Assembly (NCBI GenBank): GCA_900473795.1 | Contig: UCMT01000027.1 | Span: forward strand, 124,001-188,000 | DNA: 64,000 nt | From: Hyphomicrobiales bacterium | Lineage (GTDB): Bacteria > Pseudomonadota > Alphaproteobacteria > Rhizobiales > Rhizobiaceae | Direction of reading: 5' to 3' | Shown: piece after piece, positions 29,969 to 57,681 of the stretch | Position numbering within the stretch: position 1 is the first letter of the stretch | How the letters are laid out: the number at the start of each line of letters is the position of its first letter | The notes under the pieces: generated by a model | Databases searched by the model: none | Told to the model about the DNA's origin: nothing | The model's input: only the letters and a program-made list of their open reading frames with translations | Made by a program: the position numbers and the translations under genes

Positions 29969-30162
29969 GCCTTTTTCTCCTTTTCCGGTTGAACCTCCGC
30001 AAGGCAAACAGCACCTTCTTCGAAGGCGCCACCGGGTGGAACTGCCCGGATTTCTCCCGGACGGTCCCAAACCTCACGTGTGGAATGCGGTGGCCTTACC
30101 CCCTGCTGCCCGATAAATCAAGGGTAAAGGCGTAAAATATCGGAGGGCAGCATGTCAGGGCT

Positions 30163-48377: not shown

Positions 48378-48406
48378 ATCTGTCGCGATCCAACGATGCG
48401 CACTGC

Positions 48407-48438
48407 AGAAAGCCCGCGACGACCGTCGCGGGCTTTCT
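48407..48438 (+). terminator. Strong bidirectional terminator after aapP
   Basis: Perfect 14-base stem AGAAAGCCCGCGAC (48407-48420) with GTCGCGGGCTTTCT (48425-48438) and a four-base loop. It closes the aap operon and lies 20 bases from the stop of the convergent caspase gene, so it may serve both. Confidence 0.85.
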
Positions 48439-48457
48439 GGCTTGAAGGCGTGCGATC

Positions 48458-50014
48458 CTATTCTATCGTGTATTTCAGCGTTCCGAGCGACCAGCGCAGG
48501 CCGCGATTTTCGGTATCGCCCGTCCAGGTCTTTCCAAGCTTGGCGACGATCTCGCTCACGCGCTTTCGCGCATCGAGCTCGGTATTGAGCCCCTGCGCTG
48601 CCGGCGCGACATCCTTCAAATCCAGATCGTCGGTGACGACGATTGCCACCAGCATGTTCTCGCCGCTGCCGTCCGCCTCGAAATCGAAGCCGTAATAGTC
48701 GTCCGGGATGGTCAGCGTCGAGCCCGCCGAGAGCGGCGTTATCTTCTGCGCCATCTCATTCGGGAAAATCTGCGTCGCAACGCCCTCACCGTTCACGTCG
48801 AGCAATATCAGATGGCCGTCATACTTGCTGGTGACGGAAATCTTGAAAGGTTGGCCTTTTTTCAGTGCCGGACCGGTATCAAGCGAGACCGTCACATCGC
48901 CCGTATCCGCCTTGCCAATGATATCACCAATGGCTGCCACCGGGTTTGCGTCGACGTAAGCCGTCGCCGCTCCGGCGTCGACCTTCGCCTCTTGGTACAC
49001 CGGCTCTGGTTTGCCCTGCTGCTGGTCCGTCGCCGTTGCAGTCTGTTCCGTTTTGTACGGTTCCGGCTTGGCAACACTTGTTCCGAGCGCATCGGCCACG
49101 CTTTCCAGCTGTGGATCGAGATTGTCACAGTTTTCCTGGGCCGAACAGTATTCCTTGGACTTTGTCGTCACATACTGGAAGAGCTCGGCATTGCTCACCA
49201 GACCGTTGGCGTTTCCATCCGATTCCGAAGGTTTGTAGCCGGCTACATAAGCAGAGGTAAAAACACCGTGACGGTCCTCGATAGGCAACCGCACATCGTC
49301 CCAGGCGACCTGATAGGGGGCAGCCGCACTCCAGGCGGTGACGCCGCCGGCCGTCAGTTCCGCCGGCTTGTCGACGACGCCCAGATCGATCCGCAGGCCG
49401 CGCGTCACCTTGTCCTTCGATGCCTGGGCGAAGGGGCGCGGCAGGTAGCGTGCACCGCTCATGCCGGAAAGCTTTTCGGTCGAGAGAGCGCGGGAGATCG
49501 TGCCGGAATGGCAGGCGTCGATCACCAGCGTCACCGCCCTGCCCTTCATCTTTTCCAAGAGCGCCTCGAGGTCGTCATCGAGGATGACATTCGTCCAGTC
49601 CGCTTCGCCGGCCTTGATGTCGTAGGTGGACAATGCCTCGTCCATCCCGTCCTCCTCGTCCTTGCTGACGTCCTTCACCTGCAGGCCATGTCCGGAAAAG
49701 TAGAAGTAGATCCGGTCGCCGGGCGCCGTTCCGGCAACCAGCCACTCATCGACCGAGGACAGGATCGCCGCGCGGCTGGCCTTGTCGTCGGTCAAGACGC
49801 GAATGGCTTCCGGCTTGAAGGACAGCGTACCGGTCAACAGACCCTCGATCGCCTTCACGTCGTTCTTCGGCCCATGCAGATACATGTCCTCCGGAAGGTT
49901 TTCATAGGTACCGATGCCGACCAGCAGCGCCCGATCCTCTGCCTTTGCCGCAGGCGATTGCGCCAGCAGCAACGATGCACCGAGCAATCCTGCGACAGTT
50001 CGTAGCGCGGCCAT
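48458..50014 (-). CDS. Exported caspase-family (C14) protease with C-terminal DUF4384 module
   Basis: 518 residues. Signal peptide 1-25 (cleavage after AAKA). The caspase-fold p20 domain covers about 27-260; the catalytic dyad is His109 in YFSGHG and Cys168 in VIDACHSG. An EF-hand-like loop lies at 266-277 (Asp266, Asn268, Asn270, Ser274, Glu277). A Gln/Pro/Ala linker of about 70 residues leads to a DUF4384-type domain around 374-460 (ALKKGQPFKISVTSKYDGHL). Caspase-like peptidases cleave after basic or acidic residues; the specificity here is unknown. Its start shares one base with the stop of the preceding caspase gene (TGATG), so the pair is translationally coupled. It is the last gene of a leftward five-gene run. 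Confidence 0.88.
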   Translation of the reverse strand: MAALRTVAGLLGASLLLAQSPAAKAEDRALLVGIGTYENLPEDMYLHGPKNDVKAIEGLLTGTLSFKPEAIRVLTDDKASRAAILSSVDEWLVAGTAPGDRIYFYFSGHGLQVKDVSKDEEDGMDEALSTYDIKAGEADWTNVILDDDLEALLEKMKGRAVTLVIDACHSGTISRALSTEKLSGMSGARYLPRPFAQASKDKVTRGLRIDLGVVDKPAELTAGGVTAWSAAAPYQVAWDDVRLPIEDRHGVFTSAYVAGYKPSESDGNANGLVSNAELFQYVTTKSKEYCSAQENCDNLDPQLESVADALGTSVAKPEPYKTEQTATATDQQQGKPEPVYQEAKVDAGAATAYVDANPVAAIGDIIGKADTGDVTVSLDTGPALKKGQPFKISVTSKYDGHLILLDVNGEGVATQIFPNEMAQKITPLSAGSTLTIPDDYYGFDFEADGSGENMLVAIVVTDDLDLKDVAPAAQGLNTELDARKRVSEIVAKLGKTWTGDTENRGLRWSLGTLKYTIE

Positions 50015-51555
50015 CAGAGTTTTTCCCGGGTGTAGAGCGGCTGGATCGCGACGCTCGTATCGGTACCGTCAATCCGCGTCATCAGCAGTTGCAGCAGCGT
50101 CGAGGCATCGACATTCTTGCTCGCCAGCGCAGCGCCGATGGCATCGATCGGCTCATTGGTTGAAATGGCGATGAGGTGATCGGCGCCGAAAGGTTCGACC
50201 ACCTGCAGGTCGGTCAGCTTGAACTCGTGGCTTTCAGTCCCCTCCGCCTGCACGTCCAGCAATTGTACCTCGCCGGTATTGGCGAGGTTGAAGACGATCA
50301 TGTTCTTGTATCCGGAGGCGGGCGCGTCGAATGCAAGGCGGTCACCGGCCCCATAGATATCCTTTTGCGGTTTCAACGATACCGTGCCGGGGTTCTGGCT
50401 CGCCATCGCTTTCAGAAAATCGAGCAGAATGAACTTGTTGACAACGACCTGGACATTGCTTTCGTTGACGTTTTCGCCGGCCACGTCCCCATTCGGCGTA
50501 TAGAAGACGCCGCCCGCCGCATCCCAGCGGTAGGGCACGCCGCTGCCGCCGGTATTTTCCGGGACCATCTGCGAGCCGCTGACCGTCAGCGCCAACTTAC
50601 CATCCCAGCCCCTTTCTCTCACAGGCTTATGCGTTTTCGTTTTCTGAGCACTTGGATCGGCCGCTACTGCTACGCTGCGGGTCAGCGGCATGACCACCTC
50701 ATCCTCGGAGCGCGGCACCTGTGGCGTGAAGTTCGGGATCTGCAAGGCCTCGGACTGGTGCTTCACATTGGCAAAGACATAGTCCTCGAGTTCGATCCGG
50801 GAGATGCGGCCATCCTCATTCCGATCCGCCGATCCCTCGACCGCGCGGGCAAAACTCCAGCTCAGGGCTCCGCGCGCCTCGCCGCCGATGATCACTTCGG
50901 GCGACGGCTGGCTTTCCAGCGAAGCGGCAAGCACCGTCACCTGGCGGAACTGCGCCTCCTTGACCTGAGCGCCCGAGACCGCCTCCTCCGAAGGTGGCGG
51001 CAGTTTGACGGTGACCGCCTGGGCAAGGCGCGTCTTGCCGGAAAAGGCGCGACTCATGCCGCCGGAATGGCAGCTGTCGGATACGAACAGCACATGCACG
51101 CCCTTGACCTCGGCTTCGGAAAACCAGGCATTCAACTCGTTGTCGACGATGATCTCGTGATCAGTCTCCTCGGCACGATTGCGGTCGAAGCCCGGCAATT
51201 GCAGGAATTCGTCGAGGCCATCCGCCTCGTCACCGGCGACGAGCTCCGGCATCTGCGCCCCGTGGCCGGCATAGGTGAAGATGATCGTATCGCCCTCACC
51301 CGCTGCATCGACAAAGCCCGTCCACGCGGCGCGGATATCGTCCTTGCGCGCGGCCGCATCGAAAAAGGTCGCCATCTGGTCTATGCCCGCCCGCCGCAGC
51401 GCGCCTTCGACGTCGGTCGCATCCTTCACCGCACCATCAAGGCTCACCTCATAGGGATAGGCATCAACGCCGACCACCAAGGCATAGGTTTTCGCATAAG
51501 CGGCACCGAGCGGCGCGGCGGAGACCAAAAGGGAAAGCAGCAGGGCGCGCAGCAT
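50014..51555 (-). CDS. Second exported caspase-family (C14) protease with DUF4384-like C-terminus
   Basis: 513 residues. Signal peptide 1-21 (AAYA-KTYALVVGVDAYPY). The caspase domain has dyad residues His98 in TYAGHGAQ and Cys162 in VSDSCHSGG. A complete 12-residue EF-hand loop is at 244-255 (Asp244, Asn246, Asp248, Gly249, Ser252, Glu255), hinting at calcium control as in metacaspases. The C-terminal 120 residues contain a DUF4384-like stretch (IYGAGDRLAFDAP through QLLDVQAEG). It is only distantly similar to the downstream caspase, so not a recent duplicate. The start is ATG 51555, or GTG 51558 immediately before; the gene begins within three bases of the OmpA-type stop. Confidence 0.88.
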   Translation of the reverse strand: MLRALLLSLLVSAAPLGAAYAKTYALVVGVDAYPYEVSLDGAVKDATDVEGALRRAGIDQMATFFDAAARKDDIRAAWTGFVDAAGEGDTIIFTYAGHGAQMPELVAGDEADGLDEFLQLPGFDRNRAEETDHEIIVDNELNAWFSEAEVKGVHVLFVSDSCHSGGMSRAFSGKTRLAQAVTVKLPPPSEEAVSGAQVKEAQFRQVTVLAASLESQPSPEVIIGGEARGALSWSFARAVEGSADRNEDGRISRIELEDYVFANVKHQSEALQIPNFTPQVPRSEDEVVMPLTRSVAVAADPSAQKTKTHKPVRERGWDGKLALTVSGSQMVPENTGGSGVPYRWDAAGGVFYTPNGDVAGENVNESNVQVVVNKFILLDFLKAMASQNPGTVSLKPQKDIYGAGDRLAFDAPASGYKNMIVFNLANTGEVQLLDVQAEGTESHEFKLTDLQVVEPFGADHLIAISTNEPIDAIGAALASKNVDASTLLQLLMTRIDGTDTSVAIQPLYTREKL

Positions 51556-51558
51556 CAC

Positions 51559-52449
51559 TCAGTTCTCCACATCGACTTCGACGCGCCGGTGCATCTGGTT
51601 CAGCGTCTCCTCGTCATAGGCGCTGGCGTCGTCCGCCTTGAAGGGCTCGTCCTCGCCCTTTCCCACGGTTTTCCATTCTCCGGCATAGCCTTCGGCAGCG
51701 AGGTATTGCCCCAAAGCCTCCGCGCGCGCCAGCGACAGCGCGCGGTTGGCCCCGGCACCTCCAATCGGGTCCGTATGACCGATCAGAGTGATCGCTTTCG
51801 GTTTCACGGACTTGAGGCACTCGGAGAGGTCCTTGGCCGATTCCAGCCCCTCCGGCGTGAATTCGGCGGTGCCGAAAACGTATCGCACCGGCGTCGATTT
51901 CTTCTTCAGCGAAACGCCGCGATAGCTGATCTTGCAGGCGCCGCGCATGGCAAGTTTCACGGGCCGCGGCGCCGCCAGCCGCATTTCGGTCGCCATGCGA
52001 TCGAGCCGGGCAATGTATTTTGCGTCCGGGGCCATCCAGTCGGGCGTCAGCACCTCGTTCGACGCGTCCTCCAGCGCCAGCTGGTAGTAACGCGCTGCGG
52101 TCTCGTAGTTCCGGCGATCGCGGTTGATGTCGCCGAGCGCATCGAAGACCTGCCAGGGTGCTGCATTGCTCGTGCGGATCGTTTCGAGTTCCGGCTCGAA
52201 ATCAGCGAGATTGGCGCCCTGCCCGACGGCACCGACGATCCGGTTGAACGACGCGAGCGCCGCCACGCGATTGATCATCGCCTTGTCATCCGCCGTACAG
52301 TCCGGCGCCTGGCCGCCGGCAATCTGCTGGGCCAGGGCCTCGTTTCCGGCATTGGTCGCCTCGGCAACCTGCGTCAGCGCATCGCAAGCCGCAAAGGCCG
52401 GGCCAGCGGCGAACAATGCCAATAGCGACGTCACAACCACGATCTTCAT
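51559..52449 (-). CDS. OmpA-domain periplasmic/outer-membrane protein of the caspase cluster
   Basis: 296 residues. Signal peptide 1-20 (GPAFA-ACDALTQVAEA). A helical middle part contains a TPR-like stretch (FDALGDINRDRRNYETAARY). The C-terminal OmpA peptidoglycan-binding domain (about 180-296) has the TLIGHTDPIGGAGANRALSL motif and ends MHRRVEVDVEN. It probably tethers the operon products to peptidoglycan (inference). It lies 73 bases after the multiheme gene and almost touches the first caspase gene, so it is part of the same operon. Confidence 0.87.
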   Translation of the reverse strand: MKIVVVTSLLALFAAGPAFAACDALTQVAEATNAGNEALAQQIAGGQAPDCTADDKAMINRVAALASFNRIVGAVGQGANLADFEPELETIRTSNAAPWQVFDALGDINRDRRNYETAARYYQLALEDASNEVLTPDWMAPDAKYIARLDRMATEMRLAAPRPVKLAMRGACKISYRGVSLKKKSTPVRYVFGTAEFTPEGLESAKDLSECLKSVKPKAITLIGHTDPIGGAGANRALSLARAEALGQYLAAEGYAGEWKTVGKGEDEPFKADDASAYDEETLNQMHRRVEVDVEN

Positions 52450-52522
52450 GGCGCTGTCTTCTCCATGCCATTCCCTGTTGTTTCGAACATCGCCCGGCCG
52501 CCGTTGGCAGCCGGGCGATCTG

Positions 52523-55500
52523 TCATTGCTTGATTTCGAACGTCACGACCTGCAAGCCGCTTGCGCCCTTGTCGTCTTCGGCTTTCTTCGCCAGGTTGAT
52601 GGCGAGCCCGCGCGTCGGCGGCAGATGCGATTCTGCCACCAGCTGTCGCGCCCGTTCCACCGTGAGCTTCTGGTCGCCGAGGCCTCCTTCACGGCAATAG
52701 GCGATCATCGTCTCGGCCGGTGCCGGCGTATCGAAGGTCAGGTTTCCGGTGCCCGGCTGTGGAATCAGGCGCTTCTCGCCGGCCTGCAGGGTTGTGTTGC
52801 CGATCATCGCGTCCGGTATGACTTCGACATTGCCGGTCTCCTCGACATAGAGCACCTGCAGTTCGCAGGCCTTGTTGGAGCTCAGTTCGAACGAGAGCTG
52901 ATCGCCGACCTTGGCCGTCGTAGAAGCAACCTGGAGTGCGAGTTCCAGTTTTCCTTCGGCCGGTTTCTCCTGGCGATAGGCCGGTGTTGCCTGGGCGATC
53001 GTCTCCGCCTTGACGGGCGTCTGCTGGGCCGTCTGTCCGGCGACCTCCTGGGTCTGGGCCGTCGCCGCAACCTTCACCGTCGTCGTATCGAGCGCCTTCA
53101 ACTGCATCAGCGGCGACAGAAGCAGCGGGAATTGCTGCTCGACCTCGGCGCGCGGGATCGTGCCGCCCGCCTCCAGCGTCGTTACCCAATCGAGCCCCAG
53201 CCGCAGGACATCGACATCCTCGACCCGCTTGATCGTCGCAGAGAACTCGTCCGGCTTCATGTCGAATTCCGCCGCCAGGGCTTCGAAGTCGAGTTCGTCC
53301 TCGTACTTATCGCCGAAATAGGTGACGAGTTCCGCATTCCCCGGCGCCAGCATGCTTTGCGCGCTGCCGTCCGGCGTCGGCTCGGTCACGCCCAGCTTCA
53401 CGAGAGCCTCCACGAAACGCTGGCGGTCCTTGTTATACGCGGCGTCGAGTTCTTCCTGTGGCACGTACATGTCGAGTAGGATCGCCTGCTGATCCTTGCT
53501 GAACAGCGTCGAGGTCTCGATATGCTCGCGCAACTGGTCGCGTTTCGACAGGATGCCGTTGGCATGGCAATCGAAGCAGGATCGGGCGTTGGTGATTTCG
53601 ACCCCCTTGCCGATCGGCCGCTCGCGGAACGAAACGATGCTGGTCGGGCCGACATCGAGCTGCTTTCCTTCCGCGTTCGACAGGTAGTATCCCTGCAGGC
53701 CGTTGGGCAGCGAGAAGATCATTTCGCCGCCGTCATGCTGGAAGGCGGTCAGGCCGGCATCGAGCGGCTCGATCTCCTTCGGGCCGTGCGGGAAGCGCTT
53801 CAACACCTGCTTGCCGACATCGCCGCCGAAATCATAGGATTTCCAGTAGTAGCCGCCGAACGGCATGTCATGGCGCTCCAGCATGCGGTTGTGATCCGAC
53901 ACGCCGGACGAACCATCGGCAAAGCCGGCTCTGAGCACCTGGCGACGGCGGATGTTTTCGTCCACATTGATCTGGAAACGCTTCTCGAGTTCGCGGATTT
54001 GGGTCGGCAGTTTCATCAACTGATTGTAGATCTTCGGCTTGGCGGCATTGGCCATGAACCAGTCGATGCGCATGATCGGCAGGACGGTATCCGTCTCCTT
54101 GGTCAAGGCCAGCAGCGAGGCGTCGCTCGCCGGGTCGACGCCATAGAAATACTGCGAGATCAGGAAGTTATAGTCCTCGGCCGACCATTGCAGGTCGCGA
54201 AGGTCGACGCGCACCATCAGGCCGTTGGTCCCCTCGACTTCCTGCGGCAGCACCAGCTTCGGTCCAAAGGACAGCGAGTTCAGGAGCTTCTTGAAGCCGC
54301 CGGCCAGCACGTCCATGCGCTTCATGAAGGTCTTGTCCGCCTCGCAACCCATCATGCCGTTGTACTGGTTGCGATAGGAGAAGTAGCGCATGAATTTCCG
54401 GTCGAGTTCCCCAACGCTGGAAATGTCCTTCAACCCGGCTTCGATGAAATCTCGATAGGACAGCATCGGCCGGGTGCGGTCCGGCTTCGTCGCCGCCGTC
54501 TGCGGCAGGTTCGACTGATTGAGCGAATTGATCCAGTCTTCGAGGCTCTTGACCTCCTCGGCGGTCGGGCGCTTGCCAAGCGGCATGCGGCCACTGGTGA
54601 CGGACGTGAACAGCCGGGACTTCGAAGCGTCGCCGGGAACGACGAAGGCCGCGTCTGCGGCGATCGACTTCAGGTCGCCGGCCGAATAGCTGCCTTGCGA
54701 GCTTTCGCCCGGCCCATGGCAATTGCGGCAATATTTGCCGATGAAGGCATCGGCCTGCACCGCAAGGGCTGCATTGTCCCCTGACAGCGCGGATTCCGGC
54801 GTGCTTTCCTTGCAGACCGCGGTCGTCGATTGTGCAACCGGCTCCGGCGGCTTGACCTCGCGGTCGGACAGGAAGGCGTAGATGGCCGTTCTATCCTTCT
54901 CCGTCAGCGCCGAAAGCCCGTGCGCGATCTCGCGCATGACGGGATCGGTCAGGGGCGAGCCGGACAGTTTCTTGCCTTCGTCGATCAGGCCGACGGTGAA
55001 GACCTCGGGAGAGGCAAGGCTTGCCATACGCGCCTTGGTGATATCGGGCGCAACCGCACCGGTCAGGCCTTTTTCGCCGGCATAGGCGTTCTCGACATCG
55101 AGGCCGTAGGTGGTGGTGCGCGGCGTGTGACAATCGCCACAGCCGCCGACGTTCTCGACGAGATAGCGGCCGCGCTCCATCTGCGTTTCTTCGCGCGACT
55201 GATATTCGGGAACGTTGAAATGGCTGCGCTTCCACAGCGTGATCGTCGTCTGGCGGCTATAGGGGAAGGCGATCTCATGTTCCTTCGACACAGCGTCGGA
55301 TTGGACCAGCGTGTCGATATAGGCCTTGATGTCGAGGACGTCCTCCGGCTTCATGCCGCCATAGGAGGTATAGGGCATGACCGGATAGAGATGGTTGCCG
55401 TCACGATCGATGCCTTGCATCACCGCGTTGAGGAACTGCGCATTGGTCCAGCCGCCGATGCCGTTGGTGTGCGGCGAAATGTTCGGCGCATAGAACTTGC

Positions 55501-55768
55501 CGATCGCCGTATCCATCTCCATGCCGCCGGAAAGCAGTTGTGTATTGCTGCCGGACCCATGGCAGGCGCCGCAGCCCGCAGCGCTGAACAGATATTTGCC
55601 GTTGTCCACATTTGCCTTGTAAGTCGTATAGGCATCATCGGCAAAAGCGTCGCGCGCGGAGGCTGTCCCGGGACAGTGGGCAATCGCCAGGACGGCAGCC
55701 GCCATCGCCAGCATGTGCCGCCGCAGGCTGCGGATCATTTTCCCGGGCAGTTGATCGAACATGCGCAT
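52523..55768 (-). CDS. Tetraheme c-type cytochrome-like protein with DUF4384 module
   Basis: 1081 residues from ATG 55768 (AAGGGGAA upstream; an in-frame ATG-type start 24 bases earlier is possible). After a signal peptide (about 15-40) there are four CxxCH heme motifs: CGACH at 66-70, CGDCH at 210-214, CRNCH at 347-351 and CFDCH at 731-735. The first two sit in cytochrome-c domains with ISPH and Met-containing C-terminal parts, and the third in another single-domain cytochrome ending in PLGKRPTAEEVKSLEDWI. Residues 430-730 are an unassigned domain. The last 150 residues contain a DUF4384-type domain (AKVGDQLSFELSSNKACELQ). A periplasmic electron carrier or sensor is likely; the substrate is unknown. 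Confidence 0.85.
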   Translation of the reverse strand: MRMFDQLPGKMIRSLRRHMLAMAAAVLAIAHCPGTASARDAFADDAYTTYKANVDNGKYLFSAAGCGACHGSGSNTQLLSGGMEMDTAIGKFYAPNISPHTNGIGGWTNAQFLNAVMQGIDRDGNHLYPVMPYTSYGGMKPEDVLDIKAYIDTLVQSDAVSKEHEIAFPYSRQTTITLWKRSHFNVPEYQSREETQMERGRYLVENVGGCGDCHTPRTTTYGLDVENAYAGEKGLTGAVAPDITKARMASLASPEVFTVGLIDEGKKLSGSPLTDPVMREIAHGLSALTEKDRTAIYAFLSDREVKPPEPVAQSTTAVCKESTPESALSGDNAALAVQADAFIGKYCRNCHGPGESSQGSYSAGDLKSIAADAAFVVPGDASKSRLFTSVTSGRMPLGKRPTAEEVKSLEDWINSLNQSNLPQTAATKPDRTRPMLSYRDFIEAGLKDISSVGELDRKFMRYFSYRNQYNGMMGCEADKTFMKRMDVLAGGFKKLLNSLSFGPKLVLPQEVEGTNGLMVRVDLRDLQWSAEDYNFLISQYFYGVDPASDASLLALTKETDTVLPIMRIDWFMANAAKPKIYNQLMKLPTQIRELEKRFQINVDENIRRRQVLRAGFADGSSGVSDHNRMLERHDMPFGGYYWKSYDFGGDVGKQVLKRFPHGPKEIEPLDAGLTAFQHDGGEMIFSLPNGLQGYYLSNAEGKQLDVGPTSIVSFRERPIGKGVEITNARSCFDCHANGILSKRDQLREHIETSTLFSKDQQAILLDMYVPQEELDAAYNKDRQRFVEALVKLGVTEPTPDGSAQSMLAPGNAELVTYFGDKYEDELDFEALAAEFDMKPDEFSATIKRVEDVDVLRLGLDWVTTLEAGGTIPRAEVEQQFPLLLSPLMQLKALDTTTVKVAATAQTQEVAGQTAQQTPVKAETIAQATPAYRQEKPAEGKLELALQVASTTAKVGDQLSFELSSNKACELQVLYVEETGNVEVIPDAMIGNTTLQAGEKRLIPQPGTGNLTFDTPAPAETMIAYCREGGLGDQKLTVERARQLVAESHLPPTRGLAINLAKKAEDDKGASGLQVVTFEIKQ

Positions 55769-55815
55769 GGCTTGTTCCCCTTGCTTTCTCAAACGATAAA
55801 ATATGCGATGCGGTA

Positions 55816-57075
55816 TCAGCGGAACTCGAACAGTTCGAACTCGACCCGTCCGGGCTTTTTCCCAAGTTCTTTCAGTCCTTTTTCAATGGCCTTTCGCAGA
55901 GGCGGCGGACCGCAGAACCAGAGGTCTGCCCCCGCCGGGTCGACTGCGCTCGCTGCCGCGAGTTTCGCCGCATCGAGACGTCCGTCGGTTTTGGAATCAT
56001 GCAAAGTAAAGCTGAAATTCGGAAGTTTTTCTGCCTGCGCCTCGAACGTCTCGAGACCGATCGCCTCGGCACGGTCGCGCACGCAATATATCATATGAAT
56101 GTCCTGGCCCTCATCCCCCTTGAGACGCCCCGCCATGGCGAGGAAAGGCGTGACACCGATGCCGCCGGCGAGCCAGATCTGCTTCTTGCCGCCGCGGCGA
56201 TGATTGAACCGTCCATAACCACCTTCGAGCTTCAGCCGGTCGCCGACGGCAATGTTTTCACGCAGCGCCTTGGTGTAGTCGCCGAGCGGCTTGATCGCGA
56301 AACCGACAATGCCGCCCTCCTCCATGCCGGCGATCGTGAACGGATGCGGCTCGCGCAGCCCTGGCTTGTTGACCCGGAAAAACCCGAACTGGCCGGGTTT
56401 CGCCTTGAGCGGTCGCCCGGTCGGACGCGCCGAAATGATCGTCGCACCATCGTGGCGCATCACATCGAAGACCTCGTAAGCCCGCGTGCGCAGCCACGGG
56501 AAGAGCTGGGTATAGATGTAACTGGCAGTGCCGATCATCGCGATGATGTTGAGATAGGTCGCCAGCATCGCAGTGCCGTCATAGGGCCTCTTGATGAAGG
56601 TCTGGTGGAAGGCCACCATGACGAACAGCAGCCCGATGAAGCGATGCGTCAGTCGCCAATAGTGATAGGGGATTTCGATTTTGGTCTTGGGAACGAACTT
56701 GAAGATGCTCAAGAGCAGCAAGACGACGAAACCGTAAAACGCATATTCCCCCATCGACGCCGCCAGCTTGTTCAAACCGCTGGTCAGCGACAGGCCCTTG
56801 AAATCCGGCGTGATGAAATAGTGCGCGAGAATCAGGATGAGAACCGCAATGCCGACCCGCCGATGGGTCCGATAGATCCGGTCGAGGCCGCCGAAAAGGC
56901 GCTCCACCAGCGGTGGGCGCGTCGCCAGGAACTGCGCGATCCCCATGCCGGTGAAAGCCATGGACGACGCCATCAGCGAGAAGGTCGTGCCGGCATTGGT
57001 GTGACTGACCGCGGGAACGGCCAGAAGCCCCGCGAAGCCTATCAACGACCAGACAAGAACAGCAACCGCGCTCAC
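55816..57075 (-). CDS. NOX/ferric-reductase-like membrane flavocytochrome
   Basis: 419 residues. Six or so membrane spans occupy 1-195 (ferric-reductase-like domain). Histidines spaced as in NADPH oxidases are His71/His85 and His144/His157, able to ligate two b hemes. The cytoplasmic part has the FAD motif HPFTIAG (244-250) and NAD(P)H motifs GGIGVTPF (304-311) and WFCGPPPLRKAI near the end. Such proteins move electrons from NAD(P)H across the membrane to oxygen, ferric iron or a periplasmic acceptor. The multiheme cytochrome gene starts 47 bases downstream, making it the obvious partner (inference). Start at the ATG of MSAVAVLVWS. Confidence 0.88.
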   Translation of the reverse strand: MSAVAVLVWSLIGFAGLLAVPAVSHTNAGTTFSLMASSMAFTGMGIAQFLATRPPLVERLFGGLDRIYRTHRRVGIAVLILILAHYFITPDFKGLSLTSGLNKLAASMGEYAFYGFVVLLLLSIFKFVPKTKIEIPYHYWRLTHRFIGLLFVMVAFHQTFIKRPYDGTAMLATYLNIIAMIGTASYIYTQLFPWLRTRAYEVFDVMRHDGATIISARPTGRPLKAKPGQFGFFRVNKPGLREPHPFTIAGMEEGGIVGFAIKPLGDYTKALRENIAVGDRLKLEGGYGRFNHRRGGKKQIWLAGGIGVTPFLAMAGRLKGDEGQDIHMIYCVRDRAEAIGLETFEAQAEKLPNFSFTLHDSKTDGRLDAAKLAAASAVDPAGADLWFCGPPPLRKAIEKGLKELGKKPGRVEFELFEFR

Positions 57076-57263: not shown

Positions 57264-57533
57264 TTACTTCAGGTCGCCCTTTGCAAGCGCTTCGCGGGCT
57301 TTTTCGACCAGCGGGTGATCCGGATGGCGGCGAATGAAGCGCTTATAGGCCTCGCGCGTGCCTTGGGCTTGGACGCGCGCATATTCGGATTGGACGGCGG
57401 CTTCTATGTCCGGCGGAGGAAGCATGTCCTGTCCTTGTGTCGATATCTGCGCGTGGGCACGAGGGTCGGGCGCCGCTCCCAGGATGGCAAGAGCAATGCC
57501 CGCGGACATGAAAAGAAATTGTTTCAGAGACAT
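57264..57533 (-). CDS. Small exported helical protein upstream of the flavocytochrome
   Basis: About 89 residues, with a signal peptide (SLKQFLFMSAGIALAILG) and cleavage near AHA-QIS. The mature part is a short helical unit, DIEAAVQSEYARVQAQGTRE then YKRFIRRHPDHPLVEKAREA, resembling a single TPR-like repeat. I do not recognise a family. It is on the same strand as the flavocytochrome but 188 bases upstream, so co-transcription is possible but not certain. Start is ATG 57533 or GTG 57548. Confidence 0.65.
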   Translation of the reverse strand: MSLKQFLFMSAGIALAILGAAPDPRAHAQISTQGQDMLPPPDIEAAVQSEYARVQAQGTREAYKRFIRRHPDHPLVEKAREALAKGDLK

Positions 57534-57681
57534 CCTGAATTTTACCACGGGTCACTTCGTCTTTTAACAATACGCTTACAATTTTTGATATCCATTGCCC
57601 CTAGATTCGCCTCGCATGTTTGGCATAAGGCCAAGCGTCATACTATACCCAAGAGGCACAGGGCGTTAGCAGGAGATACGT

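Follow-up and report, generated by a model that had tools for sequence, protein, structure and literature searches.

A conserved gene cluster of rhizobia joining a NOX-type flavocytochrome, a four-heme cytochrome, an OmpA-domain protein and two exported caspase-fold proteins: a possible periplasmic redox-protease module

Analysis of a 64,000-nucleotide stretch (hereafter, the window) of the 6.39 Mb genome of a Hyphomicrobiales bacterium (assembly GCA_900473795.1, contig UCMT01000027.1; genome G000 in our samples) yielded a cluster of five minus-strand genes (positions 48458-57075) combining a NOX-type flavocytochrome, a multiheme cytochrome, an OmpA-domain protein and two caspase-fold proteins, casp1 and casp2. 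The arrangement recurs in many genera and the catalytic and heme-binding residues are conserved, and for these reasons the cluster is more than a chance assembly; comparison of sequences makes it almost certain that the five genes constitute a functional unit. The best explanation of this unit as a whole is, in our view, a periplasmic redox-protease module, in which a transmembrane electron chain would control exported peptidases, and to which we assign a probability of roughly 35%.

Among named relatives, Rhizobium giardinii and R. herbae come closest at this locus, with 98-99% identity in the heme protein. Starting from the first gene, the order is NOX (P0005, 55816-57075; assigned by Pfam, alignment and motif criteria), the four-heme cytochrome (P0004, 52523-55792, probable start ATG 55768; Pfam, profile and alignment), the exported OmpA-domain protein (P0003, 51559-52449; Pfam), the exported caspase-fold protein casp1 (P0002, 50014-51558; Pfam, alignment and hhalign) and its exported partner casp2 with a C-terminal DUF4384 domain (P0001, 48458-50014; Pfam, alignment and cysteine count). 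The leftward layout described in the first-pass annotation was confirmed for all five genes, including their tight spacing: the NOX-cytochrome gap is 47 bases if counted from ATG 55768, just upstream of which AAGGGG is seen by eye, or 23 bases from TTG 55792; the cytochrome-OmpA gap is 73 bases; the OmpA stop codon (51561-51559) is in near-contact with the GTG start of casp1 (51558); and casp1 and casp2 overlap by a single base (50014).

P0005 contains the Pfam Ferric_reduct, FAD and NAD domains, the heme histidines H71, H85, H144 and H157 and the motifs HPFTI and GIGVTP, the pairs H71/H85 and H144/H157 being invariant in 39 aligned NOX rows. Over 390 residues it matches PDB 8qt6 (E 6.5e-43), for which the database entry says FAD-binding protein and which we take to be SpNOX of Streptococcus pneumoniae. 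The two proteins share HPFT, GIGVTP, two His pairs spaced by 13 and 12 residues and the F-x-FR end (invariant in the 39 aligned cluster rows). Application of the membership criteria of PMC5676040 to 72 cluster NOX proteins revealed the FAD motif H[PSA]F[TS][LIMV] (HPFTI in P0005), the NADPH motif (GIGVTP in P0005) and two His-X12/14-His pairs in the membrane part in every one of them, at least three predicted membrane helices in 69 (three in P0005) by a simple hydropathy count, and all sequence-based criteria together in 69 of the 72. By these published sequence criteria, P0005 is to be classed as a member of the bacterial NOX family. According to the same paper, SpNOX reduces cytochrome c directly, with activity under argon, and its authors suggest other acceptors; they also name another possible route, the reduction of cytochrome c by flavin in detergent. 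The earlier suggestion that electrons pass from NOX to the multiheme protein is thus plausible, and we regard NOX-to-cytochrome electron transfer as likely. P0005 differs from SpNOX in belonging to a conserved gene cluster, together with an exported multiheme cytochrome that is its likely specific acceptor. Another parallel is MsrQ, described in PMC5676040 as a membrane heme b protein feeding the periplasmic repair enzyme MsrP: it is likewise a b-heme membrane protein of the ferric-reductase superfamily supplying a periplasmic partner, whereas the cluster NOX has a fused flavin/NAD domain, a multiheme cytochrome as partner and peptidases alongside.

The cytochrome P0004 (1089 residues, four CxxCH motifs; Pfam Cytochrom_C, PSCyt1 and DUF4384) aligns over residues 50-369 with PDB 7w2j (E 1.3e-39), hemes 1-3 in register, and its front part thus resembles the three-heme cytochrome subunit of fructose/alcohol dehydrogenases. 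In contrast to these subunits, P0004 has no adjoining dehydrogenase gene, a position occupied by NOX here and in 73 of the 80 loci described below, and it has ~720 extra residues, which comprise heme 4, DUF4384 and a domain for which no relatives are known. As there is no partner dehydrogenase and the greater part of the protein is unrelated, assignment of the whole protein to the dehydrogenase cytochrome family was rejected. Heme 3 is followed by a conserved domain of ~450 residues that holds heme 4, for which neither a Pfam match over the cut-off nor, by sequence profile, a PDB match beyond profile position 99 was found, and then by DUF4384. The latter domain (PF14326, cut-off 27 bits) scores 51.8 bits in casp2 and 29.2 bits in the cytochrome, and these two proteins are its only matches genome-wide at E 0.001. 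As a small correction to the first-pass annotation, DUF4384 is supported in casp2 and the cytochrome and not in casp1, which has no PF14326 match in Pfam and whose C-terminal part matches the casp2 domain only weakly by hhalign (E 0.007, probability 6%). The DUF4384 domain of P0004 includes a cysteine pair, of which C976 is kept in 59 of 59 relatives and C1033 in 58 of 59.

Both caspase-fold proteins match Peptidase_C14 (casp2 at 3e-19, together with DUF4384 at 9e-14; casp1 at 2e-12), the PF00656 scores of the two being 70.1 and 47.5 bits at a cut-off of 21.4, and the closest solved structures of both by sequence profile are metacaspases. They share with metacaspases and orthocaspases (PMC3501461, PMC6426788; PDB 4f6o) the Peptidase_C14 domain, the His-Cys dyad and an Asp two positions before the catalytic Cys (invariant in the casp1 and casp2 alignments), and differ from them in being exported, in their tie to NOX and a multiheme cytochrome, and in that one partner lacks its dyad in five of ten rows examined. 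The dyads, H99/C163 in casp1 (the catalytic Cys being its only cysteine) and H109/C168 in casp2, are invariant in 36 aligned casp1 and 29 aligned casp2 rows; in a wider count that includes lineages with a two-heme form of the cytochrome, the catalytic Cys is present in 64 of 65 casp1 and 50 of 57 casp2 sequences. Within the two-heme lineages the dyad is lost in five of nine casp2 rows vs. none of eight casp1 rows, and a further casp2 pair, C290/C296, is retained in 56 of 57 relatives, including the five two-heme-lineage rows without a dyad. Casp1 is very likely a peptidase, and the loss of the dyad with retention of C290/C296 suggests a regulatory role for casp2. The dyad-less casp2 proteins (Gln/Ser, Leu/Gly or Glu/Ser at the dyad positions) stand beside an intact casp1 in loci L051, L055, L057, L058 and L064, as candidate pseudo-caspase partners. 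Overall, Pfam searches and alignments recovered every motif listed in the first-pass annotation: the His/Cys dyads, four CxxCH motifs, NOX His pairs and FAD/NADPH motifs.

The exported protein P0003 carries at residues 190-276 an OmpA domain (PF00691; 2e-11, 44.7 bits), a C-terminal domain of the peptidoglycan-binding type. Export signals of the cluster products were judged by eye and by a crude rule, which is too loose when used alone; it recognizes a signal in 42 of 47 OmpA relatives vs. 83 of 226 mixed open reading frames, the cluster genes included.

Conservation of the gene set was assessed with a heme-domain profile, relatives of which are encoded in 389 stretches; the best 80 named loci, leaning to Rhizobiaceae, were examined. 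The full set of five, with order and strand unchanged, is found in 46 of the 80 (with frames broken in four of these: L072, L099, L109 and L141), and one further locus, L069, is cut by a contig end. Eight loci hold NOX-cytochrome-OmpA-casp1, 19 hold NOX-cytochrome without a close casp1 or casp2, and six hold the cytochrome only, including the cut L122. By gene, an OmpA-domain gene is present in 79 loci by profile searches (the exception, L145, is cut at the gene) and in 78 lies no more than 2 kb from the cytochrome gene, NOX is present in 73 (L069 and L122 being cut, and L142-L146 lacking it) and at least one caspase in 66. In four of the 14 loci without a caspase there are CHAT-domain proteins instead, 1432-1656 residues long and recognized by Pfam in L118 and L129 and by profile in L119 and L123; all four have a Cys motif of the SAC-x-T type. 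L124 has both a caspase and a CHAT protein. Among the 19 loci without close casp1/casp2, 10 hold other caspases, four hold CHAT proteins and five neither; the caspase forms found there and in the related locus L157 include Sel1 with peptidoglycan-binding, SH3, WD40, F5/8-type and LprI parts. From one lineage to another the peptidase is exchanged, and NOX, cytochrome and OmpA are retained. Variation in layout is also seen: Neorhizobium petrolearium has the shuffled series caspase-OmpA-NOX-cytochrome, genome G368, which lies outside the taxonomic order of the window, has NOX-cytochrome-OmpA-casp1 followed by three more caspases, and in G113 a NOX-like gene lies ~9 kb from a caspase pair with other genes between.

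Caspase genes are also concentrated near the NOX-cytochrome pair on a genome scale. In seven sampled genomes with this pair (G000, G058, G215, G235, G197, G277 and G368, which are related by descent), 20 of the 40 Peptidase_C14 domains are found no more than 20 kb from it vs. 0.37 expected (genome sizes rounded); each of the seven has at least one caspase domain within that distance, and in two of them all lie there (seven of seven in G368 and four of four in another genome). The claim that the five genes form a conserved unit is therefore borne out both by the 46 loci with the same order and by this excess far above background, and the outcome proposed beforehand as fatal to it, that the genes would rarely be neighbours elsewhere, did not materialize. 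Across 297 genomes of the order, at least 12 besides G000 match most of the fused protein (by eye) and at least 18 match its C-terminal part, including G274 at 29% identity, with G214 cut at a contig end. The heme-domain profile found relatives in at least two of 385 genomes of a class sample (the source genome and G368) and at least four of 398 of a phylum sample (the same two, G598 and one weak partial match), lower bounds given that up to three candidates were scored per genome; the few matches in these two samples indicate a narrow system.

A tree of 79 heme domains (a quick method, with several long branches and a midpoint root) separates the two-heme form, which has no adjoining NOX and in many cases has casp1 and casp2, from the fused four-heme form, inside which the NOX-less loci L142-L146 branch off first. 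The NOX trait changes once on this tree, gain or loss depending on the root, and peptidase types change many times, a count of 14 changes being an overestimate. Since casp1 and casp2 occur on both sides of the tree, the sequences fit an original set of caspase pair, heme protein and OmpA, with fusion of heme modules next and NOX last.

Several side observations concern the wider family of loci. Arrays of three to five caspase genes surround one NOX-cytochrome pair in L130-L132, L114 and L152. Downstream of the Neorhizobium cluster (L157, 13499-17072) there are three exported proteins in a row, with no Pfam family for the one tested, and at least two of the three resemble the CHAT proteins of L119, L123 and L129 in having an N-terminal Y/F-RN motif (by eye). 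In a genus-level group (L041-L046, L048 and L066) the four-heme protein stands beside a divergent OmpA-domain gene, where the contig reaches, with glutamate-synthase-like, hydrolase and HNH genes as further neighbours; six of these loci have a gene of 86-101 residues just downstream, and the one tested matched no Pfam family. In L049, L052, L060 and L061 the two-heme DUF4384-type protein has a gene of the cytochrome c' type beside or near it (cluster c13; the one in L049 was tested for PF01322). In the window itself, a small exported protein of 94 residues or slightly fewer (57264-57548, minus strand), with no match to a Pfam family, recurs upstream of NOX in 25 of the 80 loci and is a possible sixth member of the cluster.

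The proposed module would work as follows. The NOX-type protein would take electrons from cytoplasmic NAD(P)H and deliver them, by way of FAD and two b hemes, at the periplasmic side of the membrane, where the three-heme front part of the exported four-heme protein would accept them and pass them to heme 4 in its own domain. The cytochrome and casp2 would probably dock through their common DUF4384 domain, and the OmpA-domain protein would tie the assembly to peptidoglycan. Casp1 would be the working cysteine peptidase and casp2 its partner, with its own active site lost in some lineages, and the electron or ligand state of the heme chain would switch proteolysis of envelope proteins on or off. 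These steps are not equally secure: conserved neighbours, intact residues and export signals come from comparison, the NOX and cytochrome steps are likely from knowledge of their families, and docking, anchoring, the caspase roles and the redox switch are inferred only. Redox gating of caspase proteolysis is accordingly put forward as a tentative possibility. A more far-reaching scenario appears somewhat doubtful: that, independently of animals, an exported clan CD protease system was wired to a NOX-cytochrome-c chain, the redox state of a cell-wall-anchored multiheme protein gating caspase or CHAT proteolysis in the envelope, and that, on one reading of the tree, it began as a two-heme DUF4384 protein with a caspase pair and OmpA, followed by heme fusion, a later single gain of NOX and several exchanges of protease.

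A number of observations weigh against the redox-protease module. NOX is present with neither caspase nor CHAT found in L110, L113, L116, L117 and L139 (L113 and L139 being 6 kb contigs). The genus-level group L142-L146 has the four-heme protein without NOX or caspase in the locus, four of these five loci carrying an OmpA-domain gene, and therefore the heme protein can work without either NOX or caspase; five genomes of this group hold five to 10 caspases each, and NOX was not found in the four genomes searched. Conversely, casp1/casp2 with a two-heme protein and OmpA occur without an adjoining NOX; in G598, which has the two-heme form, the four caspases are located elsewhere in the genome, and several two-heme genomes contain many caspases (up to 24), most of them away from the locus. 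The role of DUF4384 as a dock is a guess from its distribution, casp1 being without a recognizable copy. Periplasmic cysteine pairs are mostly structural, and the conserved pairs seen here may be plain structural disulfides.

A rather unlikely alternative is envelope damage control without gating, in which NOX and the four-heme protein deal with oxygen species, or some other oxidant, in the periplasm and the peptidases remove damaged envelope proteins in parallel, all being co-expressed under the same stress. NOX proteins are known superoxide producers (PMC5676040), and the swapping of the peptidase type (caspases with SH3, Sel1, LprI or WD40 parts, or CHAT) around a constant NOX, cytochrome and OmpA fits such a loose link. 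Nevertheless, DUF4384 is common to the cytochrome and casp2 only, and casp1/casp2 adjoin the heme protein in both parts of the tree, which suggests contact rather than mere co-expression. Alternatively, the locus might house two separate units in one stress regulon, an electron-sink or respiratory pair with OmpA (NOX, cytochrome, OmpA) and a peptidase unit. Loci such as L116, L118 and L129, where NOX, cytochrome and OmpA occur without casp1/casp2, the five of 19 loci with neither caspase nor CHAT, and the peptidases accompanying a two-heme form without nearby NOX all point this way; this reading is unlikely all the same, as 14 of those 19 loci hold unrelated caspases (10) or CHAT proteins (four) and one gene order is kept across distant genera.

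Exported cysteine peptidases need a free thiol, and the chain might supply reductant, keeping the catalytic Cys or casp2 C290/C296 reduced in an oxidising periplasm. This is quite improbable, since a c heme transfers a single electron, Pfam matched no thiol-reducing domain among the six cluster proteins, casp1 lacks any cysteine besides the catalytic one and the pairs may well be among the structural ones. The conservation of the casp2 pair (56/57) and of C976 and C1033 in the cytochrome DUF4384 (59/59 and 58/59) speaks for it, as does the precedent of MsrQ supplying MsrP (PMC5676040). The likeness to apoptosis stays superficial, as the first-pass annotation had cautioned it might be: a search confined to the six cluster proteins matched no adaptor family (NB-ARC, CARD or Apaf-type). 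Finally, a programmed death or defence device combining an oxidative burst with caspase execution in the envelope is very improbable. In other systems, caspase and CHAT proteins have roles in death and defence, and the PADLOC caspase model matches casp1 as well as casp2 (1.3e-23 and 4.6e-16 for the two), but the cluster encodes exported products, its genes follow descent in several genera and the window neighbours do not look like a defence island (by eye; the flanks were not run against PADLOC).

The surroundings of the cluster include a serralysin-type M10 metallopeptidase with RTX repeats (PF08548, PF00353; 57682-59193, plus strand), which starts divergently beside it, and flanking genes that resemble amino-acid transport and sulfite/nitrite reductase genes, their translations being judged by eye. 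Between the 3' end of the cluster and a converging ABC-transporter gene lies a perfect inverted repeat with 16-base arms and two bases between (48406-48439), shaped like a two-way terminator and absent from the terminator-scan output; promoter and terminator scans of the window returned no more sites than in shuffled sequences. No tRNA was found in the window, and its sole Rfam match is an rpsB sRNA (29970-30082, minus strand; 47.5 bits, gathering threshold 40), far from the cluster. A plasmid origin was considered and rejected: there is no near DNA match among 72,556 plasmids, and a protein search matched eight records, one of which spanned most of the protein at 40% identity.

With respect to earlier work, the caspase-OmpA link and dead caspases are known from two papers: OmpA was reported in 14 of 217 metacaspase operons in 2012, along with multi-metacaspase operons in Alphaproteobacteria (PMC3501461), and pseudo-orthocaspases in Rhizobiales include one clade with DUF4384 (PMC6426788). 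The word "cytochrome" does not occur in the main text of PMC3501461, its operon tables lying outside this check. No description was found of the link with NOX and a multiheme cytochrome or of the replacement by CHAT, and a literature search (titles and abstract starts among the matches listed, subscription journals lying outside its scope) agrees with the first-pass annotation in yielding no description of a system combining caspases, NOX and a multiheme cytochrome.

The functions of bacterial caspases and of bacterial NOX are largely open, as the 2012 and 2017 papers say of their own sets (PMC3501461, PMC5676040). The present comparison links these two families with one another, and both with a defined periplasmic cytochrome, within a conserved, portable module of culturable rhizobia, the gene set occurring in soil and marine bacteria, and offers the large heme-4 domain without known relatives as a further target for study. 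The NOX-to-cytochrome step alone, if true, would provide a natural non-oxygen electron acceptor for a bacterial NOX; redox gating, if true, would represent a bacterial case of NOX and cytochrome c controlling caspase-fold proteolysis.

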